Shown one piece after another: positions 58,208 to 64,000 of a stretch of DNA of 64,000 bases; the stretch's first letter is position 1; every line of letters begins with the position of its first letter. The position numbers and the translations under genes are program-made. The stretch is from the NCBI RefSeq assembly GCF_008629675.1, contig NZ_VWOX01000008.1:186001-250000 (forward strand), in the 5' to 3' direction. The notes under the pieces are model-generated. The model was not told the DNA's origin. It did not search any database and saw only the letters and a program-made list of their open reading frames with translations. Source of the DNA: Roseiconus nitratireducens. Lineage in GTDB: Bacteria; Planctomycetota; Planctomycetia; Pirellulales; Pirellulaceae.

Positions 58208-60412
58208 ATGAATCGCCCCGACACGCCTCTCCGCTCGCCCTCCGACACGAGGCCGGTCGACCGCCGCCACGGAAAGTCGACCGGCGGTCGGATCGCCGTG
58301 GGGCTGCTGTTGGGCGTACTTTGCGGGTTGATGTTCGGCGACCGGTGCGCGGCGCTGCAACATTTCGGCCAAGCCTACGTGGGGCTGCTGCAGATGACCG
58401 TGCTCCCGTACCTGGTGCTCTCGTTGTGCGGGAAGATGGGCCGGCTGAGTGGCGGCGAGGCACGGCGGATGGGGCTCAACGCCCTGGTCGTGCTGCTGCT
58501 GATCTGGTGCATCGGCATCGTCCTGGTCGTGGCCACCGCGGGGATGCTGCCGGAAATCCGCGGGGCCTCGTTCTTCAGCGCCACCGCCGCGGATCAAGTC
58601 GCCGAACCGGATCTGGTCACCAGGTTCATTCCCTCAAACATTTTCCACGCGCTGGCCGAGGGGATCGTTCCGGCGGTCGTTGTGTTCTGCCTGTTTTTCG
58701 GATCGGCCTTGATCGTGGTGCCCGCCAAAGAACCCGTCTTGGATCTGTTGGACCTGGGCGCCGCCGCGTTGGGACAGGTGAATGTGTTCCTGATCCGGCT
58801 GGCGCCGATCGGGCTGTTCATGTTGACCGCCGCCGCAGCCGGGACGGTGCGGATCGAAGAGCTTTCGCGTCTGCAGGGTTACCTGATGATGTTGGGGATG
58901 ACTTGTGCCGTCGCGACGCTTGGCATCTTGCCGCTGCTGGTCAGCAGCGTGACCGCCATCCGCTTTCGCGACGTTCTCAAGGCGGCGTATGAACCGCTGT
59001 TGACCGCGATTGCCACGGGAAAGCTGCTGGTCGTCTTGCCGCAGATCGTGGAGAACTGCGAACGCTTGCTGGACGAGCAGGACGACCCGGTTGGGGTGGA
59101 CGACACGACGCCGGGTGTCCTGGTGCCACTGGCCTATTCGTTTCCGCACCTGGGGAAGCTCTTGGCGTATGTCTTCATTCCCTTCGCGGCCTGGTACGTC
59201 GGTCACCGGTTGAGCCTTTTGCAGACGTTTCACGTGGCCGCATCGGGAACGGTCTCCAGCTTCGCCGGCCCGTTGGTCAGCATGCCTTACCTGCTGGACC
59301 GATACCACCTTCCGCAAGACTTGATGACGCTGTTCATCCTGCCCGGCTTCGTGACCATGCGGATGGGCGACGTGGTCGGCGTGATGCACCTGATGGCGTT
59401 GACCTTGATCGTCAATCAATCGCTCAGCGGACGATTACAAATCCGTTGGCGTCGGTTGCTGGCAGGGGGGCTCGCGATCGCGATCTGCGTGGCGGGCTTG
59501 GCAGCGGCCGGACGTTACTACCTGGCGTCAACCAGTTTTCACTACGACCTGGACACCCGCTTTCTGGCCATGGAGGTCCGCTGGCCGCACCCCGATGCGA
59601 TCGTGTATCGAAGCCGAGAGGAGGTCCCCGCGCGAACGGTGCCCGCGGGAGAAACTTTCGAACATGTCAAAGATTCCAAATTGATGCGAGTCGGCTATCA
59701 CGCGGATCACCTGCCGTACTCGTTTCTGAATCATCGGCAACACCTGGTCGGCCTGGACATTGAACTGATTCACGGTTTGGCAAATCGGCTGGACGTGCAA
59801 TTGGAGTTCGTCCCGTACACCTACGAGACCATGGCCGAACAACTTCGAACCGGTGAAGTCGACTTGCTGGTGGGCGGCCTGCTGATGAATCCCGAACGGA
59901 TGTTGCAGCTCGAGTTCACTCAGCCCTACCAAACCGCAACGATGGCGATCGTGACCCCGGATCACTTGCGCGACCGCTTCGATCGCTGGGATGATCCCCT
60001 TCTGGCGACGTCGGTCCGGATGGCGGCCGTGGACGAAACGCTGGCCGCCGCGGCACGGCGGCAATGGCCGCTGGCTGACATCGTCGTGATCGAATCTTAC
60101 CGTCAATTCTTCCGTCAACCCGAACCGTCTTTGGACGGATTGATCATTGCCGCCGAAGAGGGTGCGGCCTGGAACGTTCTGTATCCGGACTACGCCGTCG
60201 TCGTTCCAGAGCCGATCCTCCAGCGCCCGGTCGGCTTCGCCGTGCGAAATGGTGAATTGAACTGGCTGCGGTTCCTGGATCGCTGGCTGGATTTTGAACG
60301 GCTGGACGGATCGCTGGCGGAACTGCGCTCTCACTGGACCGAGGGCGCCGGCGTCAAAGACGGCAAACCGCGTTGGTGCATCGCCCGCGATGTGCTGGGC
60401 TGGATTGAATGA
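58208..60412 (+). CDS. Dicarboxylate/amino-acid symporter-like protein fused to a family-3 solute-binding domain
   Basis: 734 residues. Residues 25-405 follow the DAACS (GltP) fold: helix pattern through 'YVGLLQMTVLPYLVLSLCGKMG', hairpin regions near 264-280 and 341-365, and a final helix 8 'GFVTMRMGDVVGVMHLMALTL'. The NMDGT motif and Ser-rich hairpin-1 motif of glutamate transporters are absent. An extra helix, 417-437 (LLAGGLAIAICVAGLAAAGR), after the positive RWRR, would place the rest outside. Residues 485-715 form a solute-binding domain (KLMRVGYHADHLPYSFLN, LVGLDIELIHGLA, VDLLVGGLLMNPER). It is one uninterrupted frame. Function: probable uptake of an organic acid or amino acid delivered by its own binding domain. 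Confidence 0.9.
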   Translation: MNRPDTPLRSPSDTRPVDRRHGKSTGGRIAVGLLLGVLCGLMFGDRCAALQHFGQAYVGLLQMTVLPYLVLSLCGKMGRLSGGEARRMGLNALVVLLLIWCIGIVLVVATAGMLPEIRGASFFSATAADQVAEPDLVTRFIPSNIFHALAEGIVPAVVVFCLFFGSALIVVPAKEPVLDLLDLGAAALGQVNVFLIRLAPIGLFMLTAAAAGTVRIEELSRLQGYLMMLGMTCAVATLGILPLLVSSVTAIRFRDVLKAAYEPLLTAIATGKLLVVLPQIVENCERLLDEQDDPVGVDDTTPGVLVPLAYSFPHLGKLLAYVFIPFAAWYVGHRLSLLQTFHVAASGTVSSFAGPLVSMPYLLDRYHLPQDLMTLFILPGFVTMRMGDVVGVMHLMALTLIVNQSLSGRLQIRWRRLLAGGLAIAICVAGLAAAGRYYLASTSFHYDLDTRFLAMEVRWPHPDAIVYRSREEVPARTVPAGETFEHVKDSKLMRVGYHADHLPYSFLNHRQHLVGLDIELIHGLANRLDVQLEFVPYTYETMAEQLRTGEVDLLVGGLLMNPERMLQLEFTQPYQTATMAIVTPDHLRDRFDRWDDPLLATSVRMAAVDETLAAAARRQWPLADIVVIESYRQFFRQPEPSLDGLIIAAEEGAAWNVLYPDYAVVVPEPILQRPVGFAVRNGELNWLRFLDRWLDFERLDGSLAELRSHWTEGAGVKDGKPRWCIARDVLGWIE

Positions 60413-61397: not shown

Positions 61398-63212
61398 TCA
61401 GACGCGGTTGGCTTCCCGGTCCTGCGACTTGCGCGATTCATCACCCGATGCCTGGCCAGAATTCAGGTTGGCTTCCAACACCGTTTTGACGACGTCGATC
61501 AATTGGTCCAGACGGAACGGCTTGAACAACAGGGCTTTGGGGTGCAACCCGTTTTGCCGGGCGTTGACAATCGAGTGCCCGGGATCGTAGCCGAACCCGG
61601 TCATCAGAATCATCGGCACCGGGTCAATGATCTTCTTCAACCGCATCATCAGTTGAAACCCGCTGAACTCGGGCAGTTTGATGTCGCTGATGATCACGTC
61701 GTATTTGTCGTCCGAATCACCGTCCCGGACCATCAGCACCGCCTGGTCACCACGCTGGGCCGTTTCGACAATGCAACCGTAACGCTCCAACAGGCTGTGG
61801 GCATCCTCGCGAACGGTCCCGTCCTCATCGACCACCAAGACACGTTTGCCGCGCAAGATCGAGTGCTCTTCCGATGAGATCCCCGGGGGCACCGCTTCCA
61901 GGGGCGTCATCCGTTGACCGATCTGCTGAATCGTCTGTTTGATGTCGCGGGCATTCTTCAAGATGCGGCGAATCCGGTCGACCATCTCGGGCGCGTGCCC
62001 GATGTAGTCTTCCATCACGTTGACCGCATCGTTCAAGATCTCGTCCACCGGCATCGCCACGGCGCTGTGAATCGCATTGCAACTCTGCAGGGCCGTGTCG
62101 GCCTTCTGGGCCACCAACAGTTCCAGCGTGTTCAACGCGTAGCTGATGTCGCGGGCGAAGATCTCCAAGAATTGCAAATCGCTTTCGCTGAAGGCTGCCA
62201 CCTCGGGGCTTTCCACATTGATCGTCCCGAGCACCTGATCGTTCAGAATCAGCGGGACCGTCAAAGAACTTCGCGAATTCGCCACGCCGGGAATGAACAG
62301 CGGGTCATTGATCACGTCGTAGCACAGGTAGCTGGTGCCACTGGAAGCCGCGTACCCGGTGATCCCGTTGCCCTGGGGGTGGGCGAACAGCTGACGATCC
62401 GCTGCTTCCTGATCGATCCCCACACTCAGCAGCGGGACCAGGTTTCCGGTGGCTTGCTCCAACACGCGAATCTCGATGACTTCGAAATTCAACAGGTCGG
62501 TCAAATAGTGACGGATGTTGTCTTTGAGCAACTCGATGCGCTCATCGACACCCATCTGATAGATTTCCGTTGGCCGCAAATCGGCCAACTCGCGCCCGGC
62601 GCGGTGGATCGCGGCAAGCTTCTGCTGCTGCAGGATCTCGTCGGTGATGTCCCCCACGGTCACCACCAACTGCGTCGCCGGTGACTGGTCACCGACCGGT
62701 GCGGCACGGACCTGGAAATACCGATTGTCGTGGGTCTGAAACGTTCCGCTGCTCTCCTCGCCGGTCACAAAGGCGGAATGAAACGGACACAGATCCGACC
62801 CCAGGATGTCCGGATTGCCCATCAGTTCGTAGATCGATTCCCCGACCGGGTCATCCTCCAGCTTGCCGGCCCAACGTTTCAGCCGCCGGTTGGCCCACAG
62901 CACTCGGTTCTTCTGATCCAGCAGCGCCGCGCCCTCGGGCAGATCGCGCAGCATCAAACCGCTCTGACACAGACCTCGCAATTCTCCCAGTTCGGGCAGC
63001 AGTTCGCGGGCGATCCAGACCCCCTCGATCGCGGGCTCGGAGAGTTGGTCCAAAACGGTCTGGGAGGAGTCCAGAACGAGAACCTCCTCGGGCGAATAGT
63101 CGCTTGGAAGCGAATCCGCCGAGCCGACACAGATCAAGCGTTTCGGTTGCTGCATCGAACCAGCCTGGCCGTCGCCGTCGCCGGGACCGTTCGGATGAGT
63201 CGATTGCGTCAT
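61398..63212 (-). CDS. PAS-GAF-receiver signalling protein without kinase domain
   Basis: 604 residues from ATG 63212. Order: unassigned N-terminus (1-85), PAS about 85-190 (GAALLDQKNRVLWANRRLKRW ... ITDEILQQQKLAAI), GAF about 210-390 (LVPLLSVGIDQEA..., SRSSLTVPLILNDQVLGTINVESP), a helical linker with RIRRILKNARDIKQTIQQIGQ, and a C-terminal receiver about 465-585 (GKRVLVVDEDGTVRED, phosphoacceptor Asp in VIISDIKLPEFSG, Lys in LLFKPF). The linker looks like a degenerate histidine-kinase DHp helix, but no HATPase domain follows. It may be a sensor that is phosphorylated by another kinase. The output is unknown. Confidence 0.87.
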   Translation of the reverse strand: MTQSTHPNGPGDGDGQAGSMQQPKRLICVGSADSLPSDYSPEEVLVLDSSQTVLDQLSEPAIEGVWIARELLPELGELRGLCQSGLMLRDLPEGAALLDQKNRVLWANRRLKRWAGKLEDDPVGESIYELMGNPDILGSDLCPFHSAFVTGEESSGTFQTHDNRYFQVRAAPVGDQSPATQLVVTVGDITDEILQQQKLAAIHRAGRELADLRPTEIYQMGVDERIELLKDNIRHYLTDLLNFEVIEIRVLEQATGNLVPLLSVGIDQEAADRQLFAHPQGNGITGYAASSGTSYLCYDVINDPLFIPGVANSRSSLTVPLILNDQVLGTINVESPEVAAFSESDLQFLEIFARDISYALNTLELLVAQKADTALQSCNAIHSAVAMPVDEILNDAVNVMEDYIGHAPEMVDRIRRILKNARDIKQTIQQIGQRMTPLEAVPPGISSEEHSILRGKRVLVVDEDGTVREDAHSLLERYGCIVETAQRGDQAVLMVRDGDSDDKYDVIISDIKLPEFSGFQLMMRLKKIIDPVPMILMTGFGYDPGHSIVNARQNGLHPKALLFKPFRLDQLIDVVKTVLEANLNSGQASGDESRKSQDREANRV

Positions 63213-64000
63213 CACACGCCTCTGACCACAGGGGGGAATTCTGACTTTGGGAGGGGATCGGTGGAACTGGCAACCACCCGCGTCCGCAAATCGCCTGCCA
63301 AGCCGTTTGACACCCGCCCCGAAATGCATCATCGGCACTCGACTAGAGTGAATGATACGAGAAAACGGGCAAACAACTAGCTTCCGTACACCCCGAAACC
63401 GCCCATTCGTCCGACAAATCGCTTCAGCTGCCTGTGGGGTGCGATTGCGGTCGCCATTCCTGCCGTTGGAGCACCTCTTGCATTGAACTCGGCTTTTGTC
63501 GCCGGGTTCATGATGCCTGCCGCACTGAATTCGCGAATTCGGATCTGCAAACCCGCCATCGGAAGTCTCGCCATCCCCAGCCGTCGCCTTGCCGCGGCGT
63601 CGCGGCGTGTGCTGAAGCGTCGCCCGCTGTCCGTGCCGCACGATGTCAGTCCCGCCCGCTGTCAGTGCCGCACGGTGTCGTCGCTGCCAAGGTCGTCGCT
63701 GCCATCAACAAGCGGCGGCAAGTCACGCGTTCGAAAGTTCGTCCCAGGTCTTCAAACACCGCGCCTTCAAACACCGCTTCGTCAGACACAGTCCAGCTCC
63801 AGACCGAGCTTGCTCGGCATTTCGACCAAAGCATCCCGACGAGAGCCCCCCCGGATGCCAGTGTCGTCCAGGCGACGGTCAATCTGACGACACCCCGAAC
63901 CGTCCTTGAAGTCCCCAACATCGATGCCGGCCGAACCGCGGAATTGTGTTTTTTTCGTGGCGAATGCATGAATTCGGCTAGGTCGGTGCACCATTTGCAC
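63213..64000. other. 788-base right-edge region, no supported gene
   Basis: Several frames open here but none has a recognisable protein. One minus-strand frame, 63646-63969, encodes a short hydrophobic stretch (LTVAWTTLASGGALVGMLW) and could be a small membrane protein, at low confidence. Two 27-bp direct repeats (63621-63647 and 63653-63679, 25 of 27 identical) and smaller tandem repeats (gtcgtcgctgcca; cttcaaacaccgc) lie at 63620-63780. The promoter of the PAS/GAF gene should lie near 63220-63400. Confidence 0.5.

Follow-up and report, generated by a model that had tools for sequence, protein, structure and literature searches.

The reading frame at positions 58208-60412 (+ strand) of the window, that is, of the whole 64,000-nucleotide stretch of Roseiconus nitratireducens DNA analyzed here, probably encodes a secondary transporter made from a single gene, in which an SDF elevator importer is fused to its own solute-binding protein (SBP). 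We assign this reading a probability of about 0.6. The fused proteins form a discrete and widespread family, the design is apparently undescribed, and it hints at a system of a new type for the uptake of nutrients.

Gene and predicted architecture

The frame starts with ATG and continues uninterrupted for 734 aa, in the order SDF transporter, ninth transmembrane helix (TM9), linker, SBP_bac_3 domain and C-terminal tail. A sequence-only reading of this DNA had described one uninterrupted frame joining a transporter to a binding domain, and both points were borne out by the open reading frame list and by Pfam searches. The SDF profile (PF00375) matched aa 28-404 (58289..59419) with an E-value of 1.4e-46 and 159.7 bits against a cut-off of 27.9, covering positions 4-386 of the 387 in the profile, and the SBP_bac_3 profile (PF00497) matched aa 494-711 (59687..60340) with an E-value of 3.6e-24 and 85.4 bits against a cut-off of 26.4. 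No TRAP or TTT family was among the Pfam matches of the protein.

The AlphaFold2 model of the window protein, built with 75 family sequences (mean pLDDT 86.5, pTM 0.80), consists of the SDF fold, TM9 at aa 414-441 (59447..59530), which joins both domains, a short strand at aa 464-466, an alpha/beta domain from approximately aa 483, and a C-terminal helix at aa 725-730. The extra helix that had been proposed at residues 417-437 is therefore also predicted by the model. A homologous protein from Lutibacter (L055; 40 sequences) was modeled with a similar layout at lower confidence (pLDDT 79.7, pTM 0.64), and this lower pTM may count against the importer reading. Fold comparisons, which rest on Foldseek, placed the SDF half closest to the AncInt structures 9bgy, 9bgz, and 9bh0 (TMt 0.80-0.81 in the window model, with 0.80 for 9bgy, and 0.76-0.80 in the Lutibacter model); AncInt is also the closest solved SDF protein by sequence.

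The hydropathy of TM9 over 19 residues is at least 1.6 in 74 of the 75 aligned family proteins. The mean net charge around the helix is +2.96 before it and -0.11 after it across the 75 proteins, while lysine and arginine alone differ less (3.11 before vs 2.52 after) and are more numerous before the helix in 41 proteins, equal in 18, and fewer in 16. In the eight-TM SDF fold, the chain ends in the cytoplasm. Because the net charge drops across TM9 and the preceding SDF fold would end on the cytoplasmic side, the binding domain probably lies outside the membrane, a predicted topology that supports the earlier proposal. The stretch that separates TM9 from the binding domain (counted over 437-477; linker at aa 442-477, 59531..59638) is 40-44 aa in 73 of the 75 proteins. 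The family-specific C-terminal tail (aa 717-734, 60356..60409), which ends in RWCIARDVLGWIE, has a length of 18 aa in 68/75 and includes W723 in 75/75, and is absent from three divergent cyanobacterial members. Given the near-constant linker length and the conserved tail, the connection between the halves does not look loose.

A discrete and widespread family of fused proteins

A scan of genome contigs returned 332 relatives, and the figures given here are drawn from the best 80 of these 332, a choice that favors full-length fused proteins. By the taxa named on the records, the best 80 span at least 10 phyla or classes, many of them represented by metagenome-assembled genomes (MAGs): Planctomycetota (23), Gammaproteobacteria (16), Bacteroidota (12), Cyanobacteria (8), Deltaproteobacteria/Myxococcota (4), Acidobacteriota (4), Alphaproteobacteria (3), Betaproteobacteria (1), and one each from Gemmatimonadota, Nitrospirota, Verrucomicrobia (Opitutaceae), and Binatia, with five placed imprecisely. 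The fused gene is found in cultured strains of Lutibacter, Flammeovirga, Algibacter, Flavicella, Thalassoglobus, Rhodopirellula, and Aeoliella. It also occurs on plasmid records of two genera, Halioglobus and Pseudoalteromonas, and the Pseudoalteromonas copy is annotated only as ‘cation:dicarboxylase symporter family transporter’. The plasmid scan matched 425 records, only two of them over at least 80% of the query; 20 of the 425 were listed and looked at. The R. nitratireducens genome itself has a second full-length copy with 34% identity and the same architecture.

Seventy-five full-length proteins were aligned, consisting of the window protein and 74 of the best 80 relatives; the six left out were located at contig ends (L030 and L048), had stops in the matched frame (L068 and L091), or had overlong frames (L059 and L095). 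Subsets of this alignment comprised 44 of the 75 rows (A3 and A4) or 40 (A5). The domain layout is common to all 75 proteins, partly by selection since the set was chosen as full-length. Pfam found both domains in one chain in all 40 members scanned, including the window protein (SDF at E ≤ 0.001), and in these 40 the SBP is thus genetically tied to a secondary carrier. The 74 other aligned proteins, two of which are on complete-genome records (L078 and L089), have identities of 31-57%. With the fusion recurring in these proteins and in the paralog from the same genome, an assembly or frameshift artefact or a functionless chance fusion, in favor of which nothing was found, is refuted by conservation and has a negligible probability.

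In a phylum sample searched with the window protein (E ≤ 1e-30), 15 of 294 genomes were positive, and searches with an SDF profile (E ≤ 1e-35) found 24 of 196 genomes in an order sample, which overlaps the phylum sample, and 3 of 295, 9 of 321, and 4 of 242 genomes in class samples centered on a genome of Lutibacter, a methylococcal one, and a cyanobacterial one, respectively; each count includes the known positive genome at the center of the sample. Complete matches had open frames of approximately 695-901 aa, and the length of the open frame was the measure of fusion in the samples searched with the SDF profile, except for three cyanobacterial proteins that were read themselves. No complete unfused member was found in the five samples at these thresholds, at which more distant ones would escape. 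Nor was an unfused member found at E ≤ 1e-8 in six single genomes, where other SDF proteins scored 138 bits at most. Complete fused-length copies, in these genomes and in the samples searched with the SDF profile, scored approximately 365-595 bits with the profile of the SDF half. In eight genomes, no stand-alone SBP half was found at a similar score, as the nine fused matches reached 302-346 bits and the next match 107.

The shorter rows in these samples (L018, L019, L117, L121, and some of those from genomes G296 and G1298) are partial matches. L018, L117, and L121 are located at contig ends, and the matches of L019 and of a 620-aa frame on contig C33 of G296 begin inside the SDF half and reach its end or beyond. 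One row of the order sample (G1342) has an internal TGA. The genome G296, a Xenococcaceae MAG that also harbors L039, has several family matches on contigs C355, C33, and C208, including a longer frame accompanied by short ones (102 and 122 aa), which would look like the remains of a broken copy.

In a FastTree phylogeny, the SDF halves of the 75 proteins form one clade apart from seven canonical SDF proteins, with a support of 0.84 and few outgroups, and the stem of this clade has a length of 1.65 substitutions per site. The trees of the two halves agree (path-length r of 0.78, a value obtained with no species-tree control). Three divergent proteins from the cyanobacterial class sample (L126-L128, from genomes G1039, G1154, and G980 of 2.4-2.6 Mb) were considered as a bridge to the canonical SDF proteins and rejected, since they are of fused length (approximately 750 aa), carry the FP motif and the shortened HP2, and lack the RW tail. 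They represent a divergent fused branch, in which Gln replaces the glutamate found at position 650 of the window protein.

Transporter core and binding domain

Residues of the core were numbered by reference to GltPh through HMM and MAFFT alignments, of which the TM7-TM8 part is moderately reliable. The motifs that had been noted as missing are indeed replaced: the HP1 tip reads TGKLLV (aa 270-275, 59015..59032) in place of the serine-rich motif, and the TM7 break reads PHLGK (aa 313-317, 59144..59158) in place of NMDGT. According to PMC12668577, Na+-coupled DAACS transporters have a signature of [S/T]92-93, N310, [M/S]311, [D/E]312, and [D/E]405, and H+-coupled ones have a hydrophobic residue at 92, L311, and N405. 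Neither signature is complete in any of the 75 fused proteins. The position of GltPh T92 is hydrophobic, that of S93 is mostly Trp (58/75; Ser in one), that of N310 is Pro in 75/75, and that of D405 is Leu or another residue, acidic in 0/75. Moreover, the HP2-tip segment (aa 350-362, 59255..59293) has 13 residues in 75/75 fused proteins vs 19 in all seven canonical SDF proteins, six fewer. The missing tip matters mechanistically because HP2 closes after the binding of substrate and Na2 (PMC12668577). With both signatures and the HP2 tip lost, loading and energy coupling would differ from those of GltPh and DctA.

The earlier interpretation of motif loss is incomplete in one respect, as the pocket is not simply empty and has conserved residues of its own that vary by clade. 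HP1 reads mostly T-G-(K/N) and TM7 reads F-P-(N/H)-x-G-(K/T/R), and TM8 has R385 in 71/75 and H394 in 63/75 (window numbering). In 14 of the 75, which come from Bacteroidota, Gammaproteobacteria, and one Holophagae MAG, the residues corresponding to T314, D394, and R397 of the aspartate site of GltPh are retained. A basic residue occurs at position 317 in 52 of the 75 proteins and R387 in 15, with both in one protein and neither in nine. Fisher tests of this apparent charge swap gave 1.9e-8 for all proteins and 0.003, 0.005, and 0.13 for sets thinned to 46, 29, and 21. Relatedness inflates the statistic, and the value of 0.13 at the hardest thinning may count against the importer reading. The conservation by clade fits a working pocket, and the core reads as one with a moved charge and not as a decayed one.

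The binding domain has the bilobal family-3 fold in addition to its Pfam match, and its nearest solved sequences are AncCDT-1 (5t0w) and other family-3 binding proteins. The Arg that canonically binds the carboxylate is present as R564 in the window protein and as Arg in 50/75 (R75 of GlnBP). The canonical position of the Asp that binds the amino group, 648 (D157 of GlnBP), is Ala in the window protein and Asp in none of the 75, a loss that may count against the importer reading. Two residues further, E650 (60155..60157) is Glu in 74/75, and aromatic residues occur at 504 in 72/75 and at 506 in 74/75. From these residues, our guess is that the domain binds a small carboxylate, which may be something other than a simple L-amino acid.

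Could the C-terminal domain be an enzyme of the cyclohexadienyl dehydratase type tethered to a transporter? In sequence, its best relatives in the PDB belong to the AncCDT proteins, with 5t0w first, the top Foldseek hit by E-value for both models is AncCDT-3 (5jos), titled cyclohexadienyl dehydratase, and Glu 651 of the window protein aligns with the Glu of the VE pair of AncCDT-3, a position compared here with the catalytic Glu E173 of PaCDT. However, Glu occurs at 651 in only 14/75 proteins, and AncCDT-1, the best match by sequence, is titled an amino-acid-binding precursor and superposes better (5t0w_A, second by E-value, TMt 0.90 vs 0.60 for 5jos in the window model). Furthermore, ancestral, consensus-like sequences generally score well against any member of a family. 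We regard the tethered dehydratase as very improbable.

Only 5 of the 14 members with the GltPh-like T/D/R triad keep the canonical SBP Arg. The pockets of the binding domain and of the core thus do not visibly track each other, which may weigh against the importer reading and would suit a ligand-gated or regulated protein, in which no solute is handed over and closure of the binding domain opens or unlocks the core to anions or to some other solute. A family-3-type domain gates a channel in GluR0. The linker and tail conserved across the family would likewise suit mechanical coupling, and the loss of the HP2 gate tip leaves a gate to be supplied otherwise. On the other hand, there is no evidence of a pore, the core pocket keeps its clade-specific residues, and no sequence feature tells gating from delivery; we consider gating of this kind rather unlikely.

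Proposed mechanism, known systems, and gene neighborhood

If the protein is an importer, its SDF half would sit in the inner membrane as a carrier of the elevator type, TM9 would take the chain across to the periplasm, and the linker would hold the family-3 binding domain at a near-constant distance. The solute captured by the binding domain would be small, probably either amino-acid-like or an organic anion, and would be handed to the altered SDF transport domain, which would then carry it inward by an elevator movement, a hand-over likened to that of TRAP binding proteins and to the proposal for TAXI-GltS. The earlier suggestion that the fused domain may supply specificity fits this importer. 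A bolder version, which we hold only tentatively and consider doubtful, is that the binding domain has replaced the lost extracellular gate and ion coupling, so that the SDF core is an uncoupled elevator without the HP2 tip. Just as tentatively, access to the core may then be controlled by the tethered domain as it closes, docks, and opens. If so, affinity and direction would be set by the covalently attached receptor and not by Na+ or H+, and we know of no earlier design of this kind on the SLC1 fold.

The fused proteins share the elevator fold with HP1 and HP2 and the PF00375 match with the SDF/DAACS/SLC1 transporters (GltPh, DctA, and EAAT), and differ from them by the lack of either complete coupling signature, the replaced NMDGT, the HP2 tip shortened by six residues, TM9, and the binding domain. 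DAACS symporters are homotrimers; the fused proteins were modeled as single chains. Among elevator transporters, the SLC1/GltPh fold is the textbook case, and its characterized members are not known to need a binding protein. Covalent attachment of a family-3 SBP to a transporter is shared with GlnPQ-type ABC importers, which are ATP-driven and have the SBP N-terminal to the ABC permease; the GlnPQ-type chains 6h30 and 6fxg are among the sequence relatives of the window protein. Dependence of a secondary transporter on an SBP is known from TRAP and TTT systems, where, unlike in the SDF fusion, the SBP is normally a separate soluble protein and the families of both carrier and SBP are unrelated to those found here. 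AncInt, an ancestral uncoupled aspartate transporter, is an SDF protein working without Na+ or H+ coupling (PMC12668577); unlike the SDF fusion, it binds aspartate itself without an SBP.

The list of systems served by binding proteins in the sequence-only reading (ABC, TRAP, and TTT) is out of date, as TAXI-GltS adds a third secondary transporter linked to an SBP. An elevator mechanism has been proposed for it, and single-chain fusions exist, rare at 14 of approximately 10,000 InterPro entries, according to a 2025 report (PMC12344293). TAXI-GltS resembles the SDF fusion in linking an SBP to a glutamate-type secondary transporter and differs in having a GltS/ESS carrier and a TAXI SBP placed at the N-terminus. 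With TRAP, TTT, and TAXI-GltS known, the SDF fusion varies a known theme. No report of an SDF-SBP fusion was found in the open-licence literature searched, consistent with the first impression that no characterized member was known; TCDB and InterPro may well contain uncharacterized entries for this architecture. The 2025 report on TAXI-GltS asks why only some secondary transporters use SBPs, suggests that an elevator mechanism may be required, and calls for further classes to test this (PMC12344293). The SDF-SBP fusion is a candidate class that spans many phyla, includes cultured strains, and has everything in a single polypeptide, on the elevator fold that is understood best. In addition, the family offers natural SDF proteins that lack the HP2 tip and either published coupling signature (Na+ or H+), and these are useful for asking how coupling is lost or replaced.

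The neighborhood of the gene was compared over 76 loci, as the focal gene was found in 76 of the 80 loci given (L037, L050, L052, and L084 were dropped). Among the 624 flanking ORFs clustered, many of their flanks cut by short contigs, no neighbor recurs; the largest cluster occurs in 10/76 loci at mixed positions and strands, and an operon partner was accordingly rejected. These results bear on the alternative that the protein is a transport-dead receptor, a nutrient sensor in which the SDF half is only an anchor or conformational relay. The core could be transport-dead because the Na+- and substrate-binding residues of GltPh are mostly gone, with no complete coupling signature in the family, and three Flammeovirga loci (L075-L077) have a canonical-looking SDF gene of approximately 400 aa directly upstream on the same strand (e.g., L077:4667-5875), as a regulated partner might sit. 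However, Pfam found no cytoplasmic signaling domain in the window protein, no neighbor recurs, and the positions in HP1, TM7, and TM8 that face the site of GltPh are constrained by clade, with the T/D/R residues kept in 14/75. The sensor raised as an alternative at the outset thus has little support, and we judge it to be an unlikely explanation next to the importer.

Several loci have individual features in their flanks. In the window, translations read by eye only suggest that the fused gene has ribosomal protein and CinA-like genes on its upstream side and a gene for a short membrane protein on its downstream side, and a long ORF at 61398-63641 (- strand) resembles, also by eye only, a GAF-type sensor with a C-terminal response-regulator receiver domain. 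The TM7 of the upstream SDF gene in one Flammeovirga genome (L110, from the genome of L076) reads NMAGN, not NMDGT, and L051 has an upstream ORF of the same cluster as the Flammeovirga upstream SDF genes. In two Filomicrobium MAGs (L085:4820-5950 and L090:3748-4878) and a Chromatiaceae MAG (L067:4337-5569), a gene overlaps the fused gene by 4 bases, and the three overlapping genes encode one kind of protein (one BLAST cluster), which appears to resemble DUF1028 proteins. In a single case (L035:4981-5994), a gene for a TAXI-type-looking binding protein precedes the fused gene at a distance of 30 bases.
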